This document shows, piece by piece, positions 5,668-18,349 of a stretch of 39,460 nucleotides of DNA (positions within the stretch are counted from its first letter, which is position 1; every line of letters starts with the position of its first letter). The notes beneath the pieces were generated by a model. That model worked only from the letters and a program-made list of their open reading frames with translations. It was not told where the DNA came from and did not search any database. The translations under genes and the position numbers were made by a program. This DNA is from Vulcanimicrobiota bacterium (GTDB lineage: Bacteria > Vulcanimicrobiota > Vulcanimicrobiia > Vulcanimicrobiales > Vulcanimicrobiaceae), in the NCBI GenBank assembly GCA_003136355.1, contig PLED01000002.1, positions 40,230 through 79,689 of the forward strand. The letters are read 5' to 3'.

Positions 5668-6852
5668 TTAAAGCGCGCGCAACGGCTCGTCAATCTGATT
5701 CGAAGACGTCGGCTCGAAAGCATGCAGAATATCGCGCGCGCTCAGATCGTCGGTCTGCAAGTAGTGAGCCGCATCACCTTCGGTCAGAGTACCCCTCCGC
5801 AGGAGCAATGAGAGTAGGTACAGGTATCGCGCAGGATAAGGAGGGAGCGATTCGGTTCGCCTGTCGATTCCGAGCGCGCGCTCCGCTTCGACCGGCCGCA
5901 GTCCTTTAGCCATCGCGTGATCATACGTGTTTCGCGGTATTCGCCCGAGCGACTCAAGGCGATTACACATCGCTTGAAAGGACACGTGGAATTGATCCGC
6001 CAGCAAAATTATGTGAGCAAGCGTCGTATGCTGCGCATGACCGGCAATCTTAGCGAACCGCCGCGAGACGCCACTCGCCGGCATCAAGAAATTTGTCGCA
6101 AATATCTCTGCGAATTGCTCTTGTCGGCTGCGGCTTCGGCGATTTTCTGTTACATAAGTTATCTCTGGATCGTAACGATTCGTTAGGTAATGGGCGTACT
6201 CATGTGCAAGCGTCCAGCGCTGCCTTCTCGGATCAGATTGTTGAACGTTGAACCCTATTAAAGGCAGATCGTTCGCGTACATGAAAATGCCTGCGATTTT
6301 CGCCGATTGCAACTCCCTTAACCCAAAGACGAGCATCCCAATGTCTTGTTCCAAAACCGCACGCAGATCGAGCAAGGGACCGTCTCCCAAACTCAGTCTC
6401 GCGCGTTCAGCAGCAGCAAGATCCTCCGCTGCGTGTTCTACGTCCGAAGCTTCTTCGATCGAAATCGCAATCACCGAGGGTTGCTGGAAACTCTTACCGG
6501 CAACATCTTGCATCAAGACATAGTAACGCGCGAAGTCGCTTAGCGCCTGAACAGCTCCTGCTGCGGTCTTGTCATCGCGTATCGGACTTCGGAACCTTAT
6601 CTCAGCCTGCGAATCGTATTTGGGCAGCATTGCTAGGTCGCGGACTCGAGTTTCCAATTCAGCGGCAATTGTTGTGAGCATCTCCGGGCCAGGCGACCGT
6701 TGGCCAGCCTCGAAGGCGATCAGTGTCGGTCTCGAAACTCCAACCCTTTTCGCAAGATCAGCCTGACTTAAGGAGCGGCGACGTCGGGCAGCGGCAATGT
6801 TCGGACCTATGACGCCAGGATTCAGCTCAAGGCCGTCAAGCGGCATGATCAA
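5668..6852 (-). CDS. XRE-family HTH fused to ImmA/IrrE metallo-endopeptidase
   Basis: N-terminal HTH (LSQADLAKRVGVSRPTLIAFEAGQRSP) and LAHEYAHYLTNRY (HExxH) with downstream AEIFATNFLMP. Confidence 0.88.
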   Translation of the reverse strand: MIMPLDGLELNPGVIGPNIAAARRRRSLSQADLAKRVGVSRPTLIAFEAGQRSPGPEMLTTIAAELETRVRDLAMLPKYDSQAEIRFRSPIRDDKTAAGAVQALSDFARYYVLMQDVAGKSFQQPSVIAISIEEASDVEHAAEDLAAAERARLSLGDGPLLDLRAVLEQDIGMLVFGLRELQSAKIAGIFMYANDLPLIGFNVQQSDPRRQRWTLAHEYAHYLTNRYDPEITYVTENRRSRSRQEQFAEIFATNFLMPASGVSRRFAKIAGHAQHTTLAHIILLADQFHVSFQAMCNRLESLGRIPRNTYDHAMAKGLRPVEAERALGIDRRTESLPPYPARYLYLLSLLLRRGTLTEGDAAHYLQTDDLSARDILHAFEPTSSNQIDEPLRAL

Positions 6853-8176
6853 GCGGTCTCCACGTATTCAACTCGGCCACGTGCCGTCGAAGCAACTCAA
6901 GTGTCTGCAGTTGCAAGAACTCCCGATGATGCTGAATATCTTGTGATGCTCGAGCCGCCACTCTCAGGTCGTCGGAATGCGGGACTATCGCAATGCTCGA
7001 TTGGAGCCTGTTGAGGGCAAGCCACGGGTCCTCTGACCGCAGCGCCGCGTCGAGAAGCCCTGCATGGTAACGCAACAGAGCAGCATATTCCAACGCGTCG
7101 CCCTTCCTAGAAACATACGCATAGTGCGCATCAAAGGACTCTATGCGGGCACTCGCTATGGAAAGCTGCCGGATCCGACACGAACCACAAGTGCCGCAAT
7201 GGAACACGCGGCGTTTGGCTTGCCGATAGCCAGCATCGCAAGAAAACGTCTCTCTGACGAGAGCCAGGGCCGCTGGGGACAGACTCTTGAGCATTTCTCC
7301 CTTTGTGCGAAACCGGTTCGGGTAGCGGACCTCTATGGTGCGCCCGAAGAAAGCGCGCGAGATCTGATCCCATAATGGAAGATGCCCGGGCTGCAGCACC
7401 TGAGACGACATTCCCCCGTATTGCAAATCTGGAACGGGAAGATTCAGCAGTCCAAATCCATTCTCATAACATTCCACCGTATCGGATCCCAGTGCATGCG
7501 CCAGAGTCATGCCCATCGCGACCGCGAGAACCGTGCGAGATCTTTGAGTCTTTTCTTTGGCCTTGTTTCCGCGCTTGAGGCGCAAGCGGATCATGTAATG
7601 ATCGATCGCCGCGATCTCGCTTTCGCTGCCCAGTTCCATCATCGCGCTGATGCGCTTGCGTCTATGGCCGGATATCACCGATACCCAGGCCATACGTCGA
7701 GACTCCTGTAGCGCCGCATCAAGCCCGCACAGCGAATCAAGCCCATCGCTGAGCAAACCGACGGCTTCGACGGGCTCAGTCAGAGATAGGCTCTGCATCC
7801 TGTCGTGGTGATCGCCGGCGTCCCGCCATGGAACGGGAACCACCTCGACATCATCGTCCGTCAAAGCCAACAGCCACTGTCGCACAAGAGGGACGTTCCG
7901 ACGCCAGAGTTCAGGACTTCGCACAGGATAGCGCAGCACGAATGTACGCCCGAACCCGTTCATCGGACGCTTCACAAACCGGTCCAGCGCGTAGTAGGCG
8001 ACGCAGAGATCCAAGAGCTCAAAAAGAGTCGGATCGCTTGCCTCCGTCGTGAACGGGTGAAGTTGGCGCGCGTCGAATCTGGCTATTATTGAGGGCGAAC
8101 CGAAATCGTCGCGATCGACGTCGACCGCTATAAAGTGCCCGTCAAACCGAATGCGCCCGGCTACAGACGGATTCAT
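6836..8176 (-). CDS. QueC-like PP-loop ATPase (7-cyano-7-deazaguanine synthase-like, QatC/Cap9-type)
   Basis: PP-loop LLSDGLDSLCGL (SxGxDS), Cys4 zinc site C-x13-CGTCGSC; long N-terminal extension. Confidence 0.75.
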   Translation of the reverse strand: MNPSVAGRIRFDGHFIAVDVDRDDFGSPSIIARFDARQLHPFTTEASDPTLFELLDLCVAYYALDRFVKRPMNGFGRTFVLRYPVRSPELWRRNVPLVRQWLLALTDDDVEVVPVPWRDAGDHHDRMQSLSLTEPVEAVGLLSDGLDSLCGLDAALQESRRMAWVSVISGHRRKRISAMMELGSESEIAAIDHYMIRLRLKRGNKAKEKTQRSRTVLAVAMGMTLAHALGSDTVECYENGFGLLNLPVPDLQYGGMSSQVLQPGHLPLWDQISRAFFGRTIEVRYPNRFRTKGEMLKSLSPAALALVRETFSCDAGYRQAKRRVFHCGTCGSCRIRQLSIASARIESFDAHYAYVSRKGDALEYAALLRYHAGLLDAALRSEDPWLALNRLQSSIAIVPHSDDLRVAARASQDIQHHREFLQLQTLELLRRHVAELNTWRPLDHAA

Positions 8177-8721
8177 GGGCGATTTACGGGGATAGGCTCG
8201 CCAACAATCTGCGACTGGTCTCGAACCGTTGGCGTCGGACGAGGCGCTGGCTGCATTTCCAGATAGCGGCTCCGGTGCCGAGCGGCTAACTCGTCGATAA
8301 CAGCAGATTTTAATTTTCTAAGGGGAACGCGCGCATCGGGCCAGTCGCGCTGCCCCTCGAGGCATCCCTCCATCCATCGAACTTGCCGCTGGGCGTAGGC
8401 TACGCAAAGATCGTCCCCGTATTGCTGCGCCTCACTGAATGCCTCCGCAAGACGCATGGCCGGGTGCGACTGCCGCGCCCGTTCTCTGATCGCGTCGACC
8501 TCCGCGTCGTTGCCCGCGAACAAAGGCTGCATTTGGCGCGTGAGCACGCGATGCACTTGCCGAAAGAAGGCAGGCAAATCCCCATCCGCCTCGTGATCGC
8601 GCATCGCGATATGATCGCAAATCTCGGCAACGACCGATTCCGCACCCACCTGGAGCTGGTACGATAGCGCCCCGAAGCGCTTATCGAGCACCCGGGCAAA
8701 GCGATCACGGTCGGTGGCCAT
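8173..8721 (-). CDS. Uncharacterised helical protein, coupled to the QueC-like gene
   Basis: 182 aa; ATGA-type overlap with the downstream start at 8176. Confidence 0.6.
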   Translation of the reverse strand: MATDRDRFARVLDKRFGALSYQLQVGAESVVAEICDHIAMRDHEADGDLPAFFRQVHRVLTRQMQPLFAGNDAEVDAIRERARQSHPAMRLAEAFSEAQQYGDDLCVAYAQRQVRWMEGCLEGQRDWPDARVPLRKLKSAVIDELAARHRSRYLEMQPAPRPTPTVRDQSQIVGEPIPVNRP

Positions 8722-8770
8722 AAACCAAGCCTAGCGCGCGGCTGTTACAATGTCAAGTAGCTTCTGCGTT

Positions 8771-9100
8771 TTATGCGCCGTTTAATTGACTTAGTCTAGA
8801 CCGGCGCAGTGCCAATGCGATCGCCCCAACCAGGCTCTCAGGCGAGTATCCGTGACCACGCTGACGCCAGAAGAGGCTCTCGTACCGGGCCCACAAGGGC
8901 CCGGGGAGAAGTTCGACCAGACGGGCGTCGGGGTCGCCGATCGCCGCCGTGAGCCCGACATAGTCGCCCACTTCCAGCAGCGTCCGGACGTCTTCCGGCA
9001 GCTGCGCCCAACACCGCCGTCTCAGATCGGCCAGCGCCCGAACATACGCCTCCAACCCTCGAGGCGCAAACAACTCGGCCGGCGCAGCTTCTTCACTCAT
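8771..9100 (-). CDS. Uncharacterised protein, first gene of the QueC-like cassette
   Basis: 109 aa; 49 nt upstream of 8721; start codon abuts the operator repeats. Confidence 0.5.
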   Translation of the reverse strand: MSEEAAPAELFAPRGLEAYVRALADLRRRCWAQLPEDVRTLLEVGDYVGLTAAIGDPDARLVELLPGPLWARYESLFWRQRGHGYSPESLVGAIALALRRSRLSQLNGA

Positions 9101-11231: not shown

Positions 11232-11723
11232 CACTTCACCTCTTCCTCGCCATGCAGTCGGACTTTTGCCGCTTTGTTTTAGCGACTTTGCCAAGTAAAA
11301 GCCAAAAACCAGTGCTTCCTGAGTTCGGAACAGAGGACCAAAAGTTCTTGGCTTACGCCATTCTCCCTGACGCATACCGGAGTGCCGTTTTCAGAGCTAC
11401 AGTTACCCTCCCGTGCAGTTTTGCGAACTGGTTTTGAATGCGCTGGCTTTGTACTCGTAAGAGCATGCGCGCTGTTTAACCTTTCCGATCCCTTGTTCAG
11501 GGCGGTGCCCGCCTTTAGCGTCGTAGTAGCTCAAAAGGGCTAATTTCCACCTCGTTCGAACGACCGCTAATTACCTGGGCTCCGAACGGCCCGACTCAGG
11601 AAGCGACCCGAACCTACCACAAAACAAGATTTGAAGGCAACAGCGTGCGCATGCGATGGTGTGATACGCAAAATACTGGATGTAAGGTGTGGTGTGAATC
11701 ATCTTGTTCCTATTTCTAGAGGC

Positions 11724-12137
11724 ATGAATGAATCGGCAGGGCTTCCATTGACGTTGCTGTCGCCATCCGTAACGACACGGCTTTTGTACTATGCCAGGGC
11801 AAACCAGGCAGCGATATATGTGCGCGAGCATATCAGCGAGCACATTCAGCTACAGGCTATTGCGACACTAGTATGCATGCATAAGGCGGCCTTTTCGCGG
11901 TATTTTGCAGATAAGATCGGCGTTACGTTTAGCAGCTTCGTTCGCACCCTCAAGGTCGAATATGCGATGAAACAGCTCGAATGCAGTGACCTCCAAGTTT
12001 CTGAGCTAGCGAACGAGCTCGGTTATACAAATCTCTGCAGCTTTACAAGAGTGTTCAAAGCAGTATCAGGACAAACTCCCTCCGAGTACAGGCGCAATCG
12101 GCTCGCGGCGAGATGTGCATCGCAAAACCGGTCATGA
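11724..12137 (+). CDS. AraC-family transcriptional regulator (DNA-binding domain only)
   Basis: IYVREHISEHIQLQAIATLVCMHKAAFSRYFADKIGVTFSSFVRTLKVEYAMKQL..SELANELGYTNLCSFTRVFKAVSGQTPSEYR. Confidence 0.9.
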   Translation: MNESAGLPLTLLSPSVTTRLLYYARANQAAIYVREHISEHIQLQAIATLVCMHKAAFSRYFADKIGVTFSSFVRTLKVEYAMKQLECSDLQVSELANELGYTNLCSFTRVFKAVSGQTPSEYRRNRLAARCASQNRS

Positions 12138-13309
12138 CGGCCGCACGGCGTCCCATGCTTTCACGGGAAGTGTCCGATGCAGCTATCGACATCGCCGAGC
12201 TCGTCGCCCGTCGCCTCTCGACTGCTCGGTCATTGGGCCGAGGATTGTGCGGCCCTGCCGGCATATCGATGCTCTACGCTGCGCTTGCGGAGGCAACAAA
12301 CGATGTTGAGTACGCTCGACTGGCGCATCACTTTCTCTCGCAAGCTGCTTCAAGCGGCGAGCCACCAATTCGGCGGCTCTTCTCAGGCGTGGATGGTCTG
12401 CTCGCTGCGGCGACATATGCCTCTCGGATCGATCCACTCTATGCCCGCTTGGCAAATCGGTGCGAAGTCGCGGTGGAACAAAGCCCTTCGCCAGAACTCG
12501 GGAAGCCATTAAGCTTTGACGTATATGATATCGTCTCGGGATGGGCTGGTGATTGCCTTGCATTTTACATGCGACCACCATCCGTAGCAAAAAGACAATC
12601 GCTCAACTACCTAATTTGGCTGACCGCTGGAGAACGCGACCGATGGAGTTGTCCCCATCCGCTTGATCGCCTCGGTGCACCACGCAATGATCTCGGCATG
12701 GCGCACGGAATCGCCGGCGTCCTAAGTGCGCTGACTCTGATCTCGCCCGAGGGATCTCCCGTTCATGACGCGGCGATAAAGCAGATAGCAGCATGGATAG
12801 CGGCAAATACGATCGACGCTTCTTCGCCGTGTTGGGGCGGATATATCGATCCGCGCGGGCAGCAACCGGCGCGTGCCGCTTGGTGCTATGGTACTCCAGG
12901 AGTGGCAGCGGCGTTGTTCCAGGCCGCAGTTCGGATAAATGACATTCCTCTGCAACAACTGGCGATTGATGCCCTGGAGAGGCAATCCGAAGCGCCGATC
13001 GATACCTGGGGCATGAAGGACCACGCCATATGTCACGGATCGATGGGAAACGCGCTTATCTTTGCGAGCGTGGGCGTGGCAAGCGGAAATCTAGCACTGC
13101 TTAATATCGCGGAGCAGTTAGTTACGAGAGTGGTCGATTCTTTTAACAAAAATTACCCCTATGGTTATTTGGGAGCTTCTTTAGATGAGGCTGAAGGGGC
13201 GGCCAATCTACTGGAGGGTGCCAGCGGCATCGCGCTGAGCCTGCTCACTCTGGCGTGTCGAGCCGACCCTTCTTGGATGGTGTATTTTGGCCTTGCGCCA
13301 GCATTTTGA
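12134..13309 (+). CDS. lanC: LanC-like lanthionine synthetase (cyclase)
   Basis: LGMAHGIAGVLS, RAAWCYGTPGVAAALF and AICHGSMGNALIF: His and CYG/CHG zinc-site motifs of LanC; ATGA overlap with the AraC gene. Confidence 0.9.
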   Translation: MTAARRPMLSREVSDAAIDIAELVARRLSTARSLGRGLCGPAGISMLYAALAEATNDVEYARLAHHFLSQAASSGEPPIRRLFSGVDGLLAAATYASRIDPLYARLANRCEVAVEQSPSPELGKPLSFDVYDIVSGWAGDCLAFYMRPPSVAKRQSLNYLIWLTAGERDRWSCPHPLDRLGAPRNDLGMAHGIAGVLSALTLISPEGSPVHDAAIKQIAAWIAANTIDASSPCWGGYIDPRGQQPARAAWCYGTPGVAAALFQAAVRINDIPLQQLAIDALERQSEAPIDTWGMKDHAICHGSMGNALIFASVGVASGNLALLNIAEQLVTRVVDSFNKNYPYGYLGASLDEAEGAANLLEGASGIALSLLTLACRADPSWMVYFGLAPAF

Positions 13310-13316
13310 ACGCAAA

Positions 13317-15044
13317 ATGACGGTTCGCCAGCTTTGGGAGGTATGCAGGGCATCGCCGGCCGTCGCCAGCGGCATTTTGGCGACATTTGTTCTGGGCGCG
13401 GCATTAAGCCCTCTAGCGCCGTTTCTGACAGGGCGAATCGTTGACGCACTGCAACACGGCAACTTCTGGCAGTCAATGCGCCAGCTTTATTGGATGGCAG
13501 GCGTGGTTCTCGCTTCCGCGCTCATTGCACTTGCCAACAATTACTTAGCGACGCTCTTCCGCGAAACACTTGCCCGCGATTTGAGGGTGCAAATAATTAG
13601 CAAGATCCATCGCGCTAAATTCGATTCCGCGCTAAAATTTACTGCGGGGGAGGCGATAAACCGTTTGTCCGGCGACATTGACGCGGTGACCATCCAGATG
13701 CAGTTCACTCTGTTCCCAACTATTTCGGCGTTTCTGGCGGTCATAGTGACGGTAGCGTTCATGTTCCAACTAAATAGCACGCTCGCCACCATCGCCTGCT
13801 GCGCAACACTAGCTTTATCCGTCCCCCAACACTTTGCTAAACGCCGATTCGCGACGTTTCGTCGGGAACTCAGCGAAGCTAGGGACCGATTGCAAACCAA
13901 GGCTCAGGAAACATTGACCCCCGGCGCGCTGGCGTTGCTCAAAGGAGCGAACGCGTTCAACCGGGAGAGCGTTCGCTTCGGAACGCATGCCAACAACGTG
14001 AGGTCCGTCAACTTGAGACAGGCGATGTTTGGCGGATGGATATCGGTGTGGTCATCGTTCCTGCAGATACTCGGCCCCGTCGCGCTGCTCGCTTTTGGAT
14101 CCTATTTGGTAAGCCAGCGCGCACTGTCCTTAGGTACTTTGGTTGCTTTTCTCGCATATCAGCGAAATCTGTCGTCGCCTTTCAGTGCAATTTCGAACCT
14201 GCAGGTTCAATTGGCAATTATGGCAGTCATCTTCCGAAGGCTTTTCGATCTTTTTGACTTGCCTGACGAGACTTCGGGAACGCATCCGCTTGGAGTCGGA
14301 CCGATCGAATTCTGCGATGTTTGGGTTACTCGAGCTCAAAGGCCAATTCTCAAATCTCTCAATCTGCGTATTGAGCGCGGAGCGCACCTGGCTATCGTCG
14401 GGCCGAGCGGATCTGGAAAATCAACTATCGCCGCGGTACTAATGCGTTTCATTGACGGCGAACGCGGGTCGGTTATCTTGGCGGAGACTCCCCTGTGTGA
14501 CATCTTGCTTTCGGAATTGCGCTCAAAGATCGCGCTGGTTCCACAGGACGCCTTTATTTTCAGCGAGACGCTTGATTATAACATTCGTTACGGCAAGCCG
14601 GGTGTAAGTCAGGCCGAGTTCGACAACGTAGCAGAACTTTGTGAAGTCAATGCAATGGCTCGACTGATGCCTCGAGGGTATGCTACCGAGCTTGGAGCGC
14701 ACGGATTCAATCTCTCCGGCGGCGAGCGTCAGCGCGTAAGCTTGGCACGCGCCCTGCTGCAACGGCCCGAGATATTGATCCTTGACGAGGCACTTACCGG
14801 CGTAGACTTAGAAAGCGAACGAGCGATACTGGGATCCGTGCGTCGACGAATGAAAAACCGGACGCTGATCGTGATCACTCACCGCCTTCACTCCATAGCG
14901 GAATTCGACATGATCGTCATCGTCGCCGATGGCCGGGTAGTAGTCACCGGGTCGCATGCTACTTTGATGCGCGATAACGCCTGGTACCGCGCAATGCTCG
15001 TCCGTGACCGGGAACCATCGACCGAGGTGCTTTCCTATAAATAG
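13317..15044 (+). CDS. ABC transporter, fused permease/ATPase, likely lanthipeptide exporter without C39 peptidase domain
   Basis: Six-TM N-terminal region; GPSGSGKST, LSGGERQRVSLARALL, ILILDEALTGVD. Confidence 0.9.
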   Translation: MTVRQLWEVCRASPAVASGILATFVLGAALSPLAPFLTGRIVDALQHGNFWQSMRQLYWMAGVVLASALIALANNYLATLFRETLARDLRVQIISKIHRAKFDSALKFTAGEAINRLSGDIDAVTIQMQFTLFPTISAFLAVIVTVAFMFQLNSTLATIACCATLALSVPQHFAKRRFATFRRELSEARDRLQTKAQETLTPGALALLKGANAFNRESVRFGTHANNVRSVNLRQAMFGGWISVWSSFLQILGPVALLAFGSYLVSQRALSLGTLVAFLAYQRNLSSPFSAISNLQVQLAIMAVIFRRLFDLFDLPDETSGTHPLGVGPIEFCDVWVTRAQRPILKSLNLRIERGAHLAIVGPSGSGKSTIAAVLMRFIDGERGSVILAETPLCDILLSELRSKIALVPQDAFIFSETLDYNIRYGKPGVSQAEFDNVAELCEVNAMARLMPRGYATELGAHGFNLSGGERQRVSLARALLQRPEILILDEALTGVDLESERAILGSVRRRMKNRTLIVITHRLHSIAEFDMIVIVADGRVVVTGSHATLMRDNAWYRAMLVRDREPSTEVLSYK

Positions 15045-15072
15045 CTTTCAAGATCGTTACGCATTAGGATCA

Positions 15073-18000
15073 ATGCCGCTGATCGTCGGGCGTACTCCCT
15101 TGCTCCCCTTTTCGACCATTTTTGATGTATGCTCGGCAGATGATCCCTACGAAGAGCTGCGGGCGCTCCTGCGTCGCCACCCTGCGGTGCTCACTGCCAT
15201 TTGCGCTGCTTCTCCGTCGCTATGTGAAGCCGCACATCAGTGGCTGTCGGATAAACCATACAAAAATAAGAAGATGCCGCTTCGTATTCTAGCCTATGTC
15301 GCGCGCATGTCAACTCGTACCACCCCGTTCGGTCTCTTCGCAAGCCTCGGAGAGGTTCACGCAGGAGCGAAAACAACGCTTCGATTGGCAGGCGGGGAAA
15401 CGCTGCGCACGTTTACTCGGCCGGACATGGGCTGGCTCTTCACACGTATTGACGAAATTGAAAAGGATGCTTCCACGCGGCTTCGGTTACATGTGTTCAC
15501 CAACGAAGCCGTCTTGAAGCGCGGTGGCCGGCTATATGTGCTGAACCCAAATCTCACCAGGGCGACGCAGTCCCGATCAGAGTATCTTCACGAGCAAACA
15601 CCCGTTTCGCTCAAACACACAGAGTCCGTCGAATTTCTCAGAACTTTCGCGCGCGACGGCGCCCTCGTCGCCGACTGCATAAACGCGCTTGCCGAGCGAT
15701 ACGCGGCAAGTCATGAGAAAGCAGAGCGTCTATTCGGACAACTCTGGGACGCTGGAATCGTGCTTTCCGAATTGCGCCCATCACCCTTATTGGATCCTTC
15801 CACTTATGTCTTTCAGTGCATGACTAGGGCCGGCTTACCGTTTGCGGATGTACTTGCCGAAGCGATCAAGGCGAGCGCAATCTTCGACCGAAAGCCCGTT
15901 CTCAAACGATGCACAGCGGATCTTACATCGGCGATGGAGCCATTACGTAATACTACAGCCGCGGCGGACAATGTCTTACAGATCGACATGCGGCATGATT
16001 TCGTCGGAATGCTCGGCAACTCTATCATGGATGACGTTTCTGTGCTGGGCGAGTCCCTGTTTCGGAGCGCGCCGATCTTGGAACTCAAACGCTATCGCGA
16101 GCGCTTCATGGAACGCTACGAAGGCACTGATCGAATCGTGCCCTTGTTGGAACTCGTCGATGCTGATTTCGGATTGGGTCCACCCGAGGGGCTGACTGAG
16201 GTCCGCCCTGAACCGCAAAACTCTCGCGATTTTGCAATCACGAGCCTTGCGGCGCGCGCCGCCCGAGAACATCTGCTCGAGATTGCGCTCACAGAAGACG
16301 AATTCAATCAATATCTGCCGGCCATCTCTTTCGAAGATTCTGTGTTCCCTGATTCGATCGAAATCGCATTTACCGTTGCGGCGCGCTCTCTGTCAGCGCT
16401 CGAGAAAGGTGAATATAGAGTGGCTCCGGCCGCGTTCAGCGCGTCCGAAAGCGCTGGGAAAAGCCTCGGTAGGTTTGGACACGTCCTGCGCAACCAAACA
16501 ATGCAACGCTTCAGAACGCTGGCCAGTAACGCGAACGAGGACGAAATAACTGCAGAGCTCGTCTATGCGCCCGGCGCACGCGGATACAATGTCGCAGTAC
16601 GGGAACGCTTGTACGCCTATGAAATCAATTTCGGAACCTTTGGCCACTCTGGCGCGGTTCGATTGCCCTTCGACGACCTGTGGGTTGGACTCGACATAGA
16701 CCGTTTTTACATCTGGTCGCAGTCGCTCCAACGCCGGGTCCAAGTTCGCGAGGGCCACGCCTTCAACACATACGGCTTAGCGCCAAACGTATGCCGGTTC
16801 CTATCGGTGGTCGGCCGCGACAGAAGGCGCGGCTTGCGCGAGTTCAATTGGGGACCGGCAGCTAATTTTCCGTGCTTGCCACGCTTGCGCCACGGACGGA
16901 CTGTTCTTTCCCTAGCAGCATGGAAAATGGATAAATCGGCGCTCGATGCTTCAATCCAAGAATCTCGTGAGCGCATTGCCAAATGGCGCGAGAGATGGGC
17001 CGTTTCCCGGCACGTCTACCTTTGCGAAGCTGATCGATGGTTGCCGATCGATTTGGAGTCCGACGTTTCGCTTGCGCTCCTGTGCGATCAGAGCCGCCAA
17101 GCCGCGAGCTCGACGTTGCTGTTCAAAGAAATTTATCCCGGCGTCGACGAAATGTGGGTCACCCGGGGTTTAGACCGGCACGCCACGGAGTTCATCGCCA
17201 GCTATGCTTCTCGCCCGATTGAGCGCGCAGCTGCAAGCGTCAGCTCACCAACTCAACGCGTACGTTACGGTCCCGGGTCAGAGTGGCTCTACGTCAAACT
17301 GTACGTCGGCGCAAATCGAACGGAAACGTTGCTGACATCGAGCATCGCCCCACTTGTCGAGTCGCTCAAAGCCAAGCGGATGGTACAAAAGTGGTTCTTT
17401 CTCCGATATGCCGACCCGCTACCTCATGTCAGGCTTCGCTTCCATGCTGAGGAGGGCTCTGATACCGCCGTTCGAGACTGCGCAATTGGCGCTTTTGAAG
17501 CATGGCTCTGCGACGAGCAAATCGACCGATACTCCCTCGACACATATGATCCAGAATTGGAGCGTTATGGCGGCGTCGGAGCGATCACCGCCGCAGAGCA
17601 GCTCTTTTGGATCGACAGTGAGATCTGTCTAAACGTCCTAGCGACCGACAACGGCGAGCCGACTGAGCTTCGGATTAGATCTGCCGCCCGAAGCTTCGAC
17701 GGAATCTTTTCGGCTTTCTACGCGCAACCCGGAGTTAAGGAAGCACTTGATGAAGAGCCCGGCGTTAAGTTGAAAGCACAGGATTGGACGCTGGTCAAGG
17801 AGCTGCAGTGCAAAACACCCACTACGCCATTCGGCGACGCTTTTCATGCCGCCCTGACTGCGCTCGCACAACAGTCGATTTCTCGGAATCCCCTCACACG
17901 AACGGTCAGTAACCTACACCATATGCACTGCAATCGTCTTGGGCTAGATGCCAAGGCGGAGCGTCGCACAATGAACATACTTCGACGCCTTTGTTTGTCA

Positions 18001-18075
18001 CGCATCGCCATGGCCAAAGCAAAAGAGCTCAAAGCAGACGCTCCGAGCCCTTACGCAACTACTAAGAATGCCTAG
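15073..18075 (+). CDS. lanB: Full-length class I lanthipeptide dehydratase (LanB)
   Basis: N-terminal YVARMSTRTTPFGLFASLG; C-terminal WFFLRYADPLPHVRLRFHAE (SpaB_C/thiopeptide-type domain). Confidence 0.92.
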   Translation: MPLIVGRTPLLPFSTIFDVCSADDPYEELRALLRRHPAVLTAICAASPSLCEAAHQWLSDKPYKNKKMPLRILAYVARMSTRTTPFGLFASLGEVHAGAKTTLRLAGGETLRTFTRPDMGWLFTRIDEIEKDASTRLRLHVFTNEAVLKRGGRLYVLNPNLTRATQSRSEYLHEQTPVSLKHTESVEFLRTFARDGALVADCINALAERYAASHEKAERLFGQLWDAGIVLSELRPSPLLDPSTYVFQCMTRAGLPFADVLAEAIKASAIFDRKPVLKRCTADLTSAMEPLRNTTAAADNVLQIDMRHDFVGMLGNSIMDDVSVLGESLFRSAPILELKRYRERFMERYEGTDRIVPLLELVDADFGLGPPEGLTEVRPEPQNSRDFAITSLAARAAREHLLEIALTEDEFNQYLPAISFEDSVFPDSIEIAFTVAARSLSALEKGEYRVAPAAFSASESAGKSLGRFGHVLRNQTMQRFRTLASNANEDEITAELVYAPGARGYNVAVRERLYAYEINFGTFGHSGAVRLPFDDLWVGLDIDRFYIWSQSLQRRVQVREGHAFNTYGLAPNVCRFLSVVGRDRRRGLREFNWGPAANFPCLPRLRHGRTVLSLAAWKMDKSALDASIQESRERIAKWRERWAVSRHVYLCEADRWLPIDLESDVSLALLCDQSRQAASSTLLFKEIYPGVDEMWVTRGLDRHATEFIASYASRPIERAAASVSSPTQRVRYGPGSEWLYVKLYVGANRTETLLTSSIAPLVESLKAKRMVQKWFFLRYADPLPHVRLRFHAEEGSDTAVRDCAIGAFEAWLCDEQIDRYSLDTYDPELERYGGVGAITAAEQLFWIDSEICLNVLATDNGEPTELRIRSAARSFDGIFSAFYAQPGVKEALDEEPGVKLKAQDWTLVKELQCKTPTTPFGDAFHAALTALAQQSISRNPLTRTVSNLHHMHCNRLGLDAKAERRTMNILRRLCLSRIAMAKAKELKADAPSPYATTKNA

Positions 18076-18218
18076 CAGACAGCCGTGCAGCACGCATCGG
18101 TATTCGGCACCGTGCATTGAATGAATTTCGAGCAATCATTGGTCATAATCGTGTTCTCCTGTACGGTACCCGCCTGCGCAGTGTTATCGCCGATTTTCAA
18201 GTCTATATCTTCGAACAT
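18072..18218 (-). CDS. lanA: Candidate class I lanthipeptide precursor (LanA)
   Basis: MFEDIDLKIGDNTAQAGTVQENTIM-TNDCSKFIQCTVPNTDACCTAVC*; FEDIDL resembles the FNLD-type leader box; C-terminal 23 aa have 5 Ser/Thr and 5 Cys; SD AGGAG 6 nt upstream; adjacent to lanB. Confidence 0.88.
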   Translation of the reverse strand: MFEDIDLKIGDNTAQAGTVQENTIMTNDCSKFIQCTVPNTDACCTAVC

Positions 18219-18224
18219 CGGAGT

Positions 18225-18229
18225 CTCCT
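18225..18229 (-). promoter_or_regulatory. Shine-Dalgarno of the precursor peptide
   Basis: AGGAG on the minus strand, 6 nt before ATG 18218; identifies this Met rather than 18302 as start. Confidence 0.75.
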
Positions 18230-18349
18230 TCAGCATATTTATGCGAAATTTTAAGAACAATGGAGCTAGAATCTCCATCGAGCTTACCTTATAGGGGCCC
18301 ATCAGTACAGCATAGCAAAAACCCGAATTTTAACATTGATTAGCCGTTT

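Follow-up and report, generated by a model that had tools for sequence, protein, structure and literature searches.

A probable class I lanthipeptide precursor with a lengthened leader box, encoded tail-to-tail with lanB in an Eremiobacterota bacterium

The leaders of known class I lanthipeptide precursors carry a short box in which a Phe lies three residues ahead of an Asp (FNLD, FDLD), and the corresponding box of microbisporicin reads LDLD (PMC3930743, Table 2). A survey of recognition elements published in 2025 (PMC12710340) describes conserved frameworks whose variation is chiefly at the residue level (FxLD to LxLD). Two of the described systems closest to the locus presented here are the following. 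The nisin system (NisA/NisB/NisC/NisT, FNLD; PMC3930743, PMC7296275) is alike in having a separate full-length LanB and LanC, a peptidase-free ABC exporter and a hydrophobic/acidic leader box. The actinobacterial FxLD/FDLD precursors (TIGR04363, NF038155; e.g. those of Nocardia, locus L115) likewise have a short acidic leader with an N-terminal hydrophobic-x-[LIV]-D box, a Cys/Ser/Thr core and a neighbouring lanB, and their leader FDLDIRIGD resembles the FEDIDLKIGD of the peptide studied here. In the same phylum as our locus, 'Ca. Eudoremicrobium' (Eremiobacterota) produces two RiPPs that are not class I lanthipeptides: phospeptin, a poly-phosphorylated peptide whose maturase is homologous to the dehydration domain of lanthipeptide synthetases, and the proteusin pythonamide (PMC9259500). 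No class I LanB peptide was found among the retrieved papers joining Eremiobacterota/WPS-2 with lanthipeptides.

The window, i.e. the whole stretch of 39,460 nt that was analysed, comes from a member of the phylum Candidatus Eremiobacterota, as do the related LanB loci L050 and L051, with the window genome in the same family. It holds a compact biosynthetic cluster whose features are the following.

11631..12137, plus strand: AraC-type HTH regulator of 168 aa (family models); it adjoins lanC in locus L036 too
12113..13309, plus strand: lanC, cyclase with the zinc-site motifs AHG, WCYG and CHG (Pfam, alignment)
13287..15044, plus strand: ABC transporter with membrane and ATPase domains and without a C39 peptidase, LanT-like by position (family models)
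15004..18075, plus strand: lanB, full-length class I dehydratase, Lant_dehydr_N plus Lant_dehydr_C (Pfam, alignments)
18023..18052, minus strand: terminator-like hairpin, a 13-pair stem followed by TTTTGCTTT (fold z = -2.97; chance expectation in the region, one)
18072..18075, both strands: CTAG common to the stop codons of lanA and lanB, tail-to-tail with a 4-nt overlap
18072..18218, minus strand: lanA, putative precursor of 48 aa, MFEDIDLKIGDNTAQAGTVQENTIMTNDCSKFIQCTVPNTDACCTAVC (ORF translation, box and Shine-Dalgarno scan, family profile)
18075..18143, minus strand: assumed core T26-C48, TNDCSKFIQCTVPNTDACCTAVC, its N-terminal edge being a guess (sequence and inference)
18198..18215, minus strand: leader recognition box FEDIDL, Phe-to-Asp offset 4 (box scans)
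18225..18230, minus strand: Shine-Dalgarno sequence AAGGAG, 6 nt upstream of the lanA ATG (sequence)

A first-pass annotation of this DNA had proposed a 48-aa ORF, preceded by a strong Shine-Dalgarno sequence and convergent to lanB. All three points hold: the translation is identical to the one quoted then, AAGGAG lies at 18230-18225 with the spacing given above, and the stop codons of lanA (TAG, 18074-18072) and lanB (TAG, 18073-18075) overlap in a single CTAG. A second in-frame ATG lies upstream at 18302 and would give a 76-aa product; this start was dropped and the 48-aa form is favoured because of the placement of the Shine-Dalgarno sequence and the start positions in relatives, which fall shortly before the box. 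The terminator-like hairpin on the lanA strand begins 20 nt past the lanA stop, within the 3' end of lanB, and is suggestive of a transcript end, its meaning being limited by the regional chance expectation of one such site.

LanB and LanC both look functional and keep their catalytic and zinc residues. LanB combines PF04738 and PF14028 in one protein of 1023 aa (E 3.4e-134 and 5.8e-50), and its alignment to NisB reveals equivalents of R83, R87, T89, D121, R784, R786 and R826, most of the catalytic equivalents being invariant in ten Eremiobacterota LanBs. In NisB, R786 and R826 have a role in elimination. A further NisB residue, His961, aligns weakly in the window LanB. R87, T89 and D121 are among the residues whose change abolishes dehydration by NisB (review, PMC7296275). 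LanC matches its Pfam model with E 1.7e-39, and the zinc ligands (Cys, Cys-His) and the active His are present in the aligned AHG, WCYG and CHG motifs. The closest solved relatives of this LanB family are PDB 5ehk (profile E 4.1e-150), which we take to be the microbisporicin dehydratase MibB, and PDB 9g04 (3.3e-135); substrate core and box spacing differ from those of the window. The signature of class II systems is absent, with LanB and a stand-alone LanC in place of a LanM with PF13575 and a C39-containing LanT. No leader protease or immunity gene (LanP, LanFEG/LanI) was recognised among the tested genes of the window and the neighbours of five related clusters.

The cluster looks like a variable island, because GC content is 0.51-0.58 across about 9-19 kb (~0.55) against 0.61-0.66 immediately to the right (19-22 kb), with the edge at flagellar genes, and because the flagellar gene beside it matches same-genus genomes that lack the window lanB. 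Elsewhere in the window, 5668-8176 (minus strand) encodes a QueC-like, QatC-related protein scoring below the NCBIfam cut-off, which adjoins an XRE/M78-peptidase protein resembling RmrA models; the two possibly form a defence-type cassette.

The lanA peptide matched no curated lantibiotic precursor family in Pfam or NCBIfam, and as a single sequence it found no convincing homologue among 20 relatives (weak matches, E 0.02 to 0.6). The family became apparent from a scan of 251 kb (15 Eremiobacterota lanB stretches in addition to the window) for Shine-Dalgarno-preceded ORFs of 35-90 aa with a FEDIDL-like box and a Cys/Ser/Thr-rich tail. Fourteen distinct ORFs were recovered, namely lanA and 13 others from related LanB loci that share its box and have tails rich in Cys and Thr; the count was zero in all 20 simulations with a second-order Markov model. 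Such small ORFs accompany most intact Eremiobacterota lanB genes; no clear precursor was seen at the LanB loci L037, L038, L045 and L046, in some of which lanB lies near a contig end. A profile built from twelve of the scanned precursors found more members in the phylum, including one genus with precursors on several contigs. In the window's own genome a profile of the family hit lanA (E = 1.8e-12; the profile contains lanA, so this serves as a check of specificity only) and no second member, the next match having E 0.41. The window LanB used as a single-sequence query against the genome contigs found no relatives, but an alignment query did, and in a tree of 71 LanB sequences (omitting L045, which has one very long LanB) the ten long Eremiobacterota LanBs form one clade (support 0.926) within which the window groups with L036, L040, L041 and L042 (0.944). 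Homologous loci keeping lanB and lanC without this ORF had been named at the outset as evidence against a precursor; this applies only in so far as the core varies, for relatives retain the box and, frequently, the place of the gene as well. Two further observations were made at these loci: L035 holds two same-genus precursors with very dense Cys repeats (8332-8526 and 8573-8773; CTGCTNCSACTGCTGCSNC...), and L037 1-4870 holds a tandem lanB pair, with no lanC or recognised precursor on that stretch.

What sets the family apart is the spacing of its box. When Phe-to-Asp offsets of 2 to 5 were allowed, the Eremiobacterota box took the form F-x-x-[LIV]-D-[LV], with Phe four residues before Asp, in 19/19 precursors (the majority from one genus; eight LanB lineages if L036 and L042 are included), against offset 3 (FxLD) in 47/47 precursors encoded at LanB loci outside the phylum. 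The FEDIDL box reported in the first-pass annotation is thus present, in a form one residue longer than the standard FxLD. The actinobacterial FxLD/FDLD box is shorter by that one residue, and lanA, with its offset of 4, was matched by neither TIGR04363 nor NF038155. More generally, NCBIfam lanthipeptide models matched 0/6 Eremiobacterota precursors, whereas actinobacterial controls were matched, two above the cut-off (1e-16, 2.9e-13) and two below.

Gene order is less constant. Tail-to-tail lanA and lanB are found in the window (4-nt overlap), L036 (13-nt gap) and L041 (51-nt overlap), and L036 also has the araC-lanC-lanB order of the window; at other loci lanA and lanB are on the same strand. 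Convergent order is therefore recurrent, not fixed. At L043, 8054-8200 (minus strand) encodes MFEPVDLIIAKKTSDESPKDFPPADGGITSIYTPTGPICGPVTNAYDL, a candidate precursor whose box has offset 4 and which contains one Cys, on a contig where no lanC was found; it lies tail-to-tail with a LuxR-like gene that follows lanB. Compared with nisin, the window lanA is convergent instead of heading the operon, the regulator is of the AraC type, the core is unrelated, and homologues of NisP, NisFEG and NisRK were not recognised in the cluster.

Five Ser/Thr (T26, S30, T36, T40, T45) and five Cys (C29, C35, C43, C44, C48) were counted correctly in the 23-residue segment that had been chosen, but the balance depends on an assumed cleavage site, and further Thr lie outside the segment at positions 13, 18 and 23. 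The 23-residue core is arbitrary; counted over its full length, the peptide contains five Cys and a total of eight Ser/Thr, so at most five rings and eight dehydrations are possible. Cores are hypervariable among Eremiobacterota precursors sharing the leader box, and none of the homologues shows clear conservation of the core. The window core resembles that of L036 (CSKFIQC and CTKFVNC), marginally so in comparison with shuffled sequences (p = 0.0135), and that of L049 more weakly (shuffle p = 0.058); a common core scaffold TxxC[ST]xxxxC... was given up since it was marginal against shuffled cores.

A scheme for maturation can be proposed, its dehydration step being transferred from NisB, whose residues are conserved here. 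The FEDIDL box would dock on LanB, which, with glutamyl-tRNA as donor, would glutamylate Ser/Thr towards the C-terminus and then split off the glutamate, leaving Dha/Dhb. Addition of the five Cys to these by LanC would close at most five (methyl)lanthionine rings. Export would fall to the ABC transporter and removal of the leader to a protease presumably encoded elsewhere, and the product may act as an antibiotic or a signal. Transcribed toward araC, lanC, the ABC transporter gene and lanB, lanA probably has its own promoter, and with the opposed transcription this would set the dose of lanA apart from that of the enzymes.

That lanA encodes a class I lanthipeptide precursor of an Eremiobacterota bacterium, as first suggested, is very probable, in view of the LanB and LanC beside it and of box-sharing small ORFs at other Eremiobacterota LanB loci. 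Small ORFs are common and this one has no database family match, which would fit a chance reading frame with the true substrate encoded elsewhere in the genome; this is highly improbable, as the Shine-Dalgarno sequence, the box, a tail rich in Cys and Thr and the position are all met again in other members of the phylum while simulations yield none, and as the genome has no other family member. A different view accepts a genuine precursor and disputes its modification: the Cys might stay mostly free or in disulphides, or only some Thr be dehydrated, giving a partly ringed or linear dehydropeptide. The adjacent C43 and C44 together with eight Ser/Thr do leave several ring plans for lanA, and the L043 candidate has a single Cys, but the same operon holds a LanC with an intact zinc site and many Cys are kept in the precursors of relatives, which makes such an outcome unlikely.

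How the extra residue of the box is to be understood is a separate matter. A clade-specific docking box, one residue longer, is the most economical reading. A stronger proposal, to which we give an even chance, is that F-x-x-[LIV]-D-[LV] constitutes a code of its own, accommodated in the leader-binding domain of LanB by a beta-bulge or an altered pocket and orthogonal to FxLD, and that in one genus a single LanB may act in trans on precursors spread over the genome. A simple comparison of the columns of the LanB leader-binding region between offset-4 and offset-3 users yielded no clear signature. It is also conceivable that the additional residue has no mechanistic meaning, real contact being made through the actinobacterial motif [LIV]-D-[LV]-x-I, with an idle Phe. 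The stretch DIDLKIGD does resemble actinobacterial leaders such as the one quoted above, and Phe is replaced at offset 4 by Leu in L036 (LQELDL) and by Trp in L042 (WEELDV). Nevertheless, each LanB lineage for which a clear precursor is known shows a large hydrophobic or aromatic side chain at offset 4, and none of the scanned Eremiobacterota precursors has Phe at offset 3; an idle Phe is possible, if doubtful.

Precursors with near-identical leaders were also seen on lanB-free stretches of one Eremiobacterota genus (G122/G123/G125): L177 5100-5252, L178 5025-5192, L179 5660-6156, L180 5740-5892, L181 5724-5876, L182 3713-3874, L183 1878-2015 and L184 5045-5179, with lanC adjoining the precursor on two of these stretches. 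This suggests that in that genus one LanB acts in trans on scattered precursors.

The kind of system is already known; what is new is how its docking box is spaced and, to a smaller degree, that lanA and lanB converge. A change of spacing would stand out against the residue-level variation of the survey cited above (PMC12710340), and if LanB reads F-x-x-L-D but ignores F-x-L-D, the box would represent an orthogonal docking tag for hybrid ringed peptides. For the organisms themselves, an uncultured phylum gains a recognisable class I lanthipeptide set that had gone unseen by the NCBIfam models tested.
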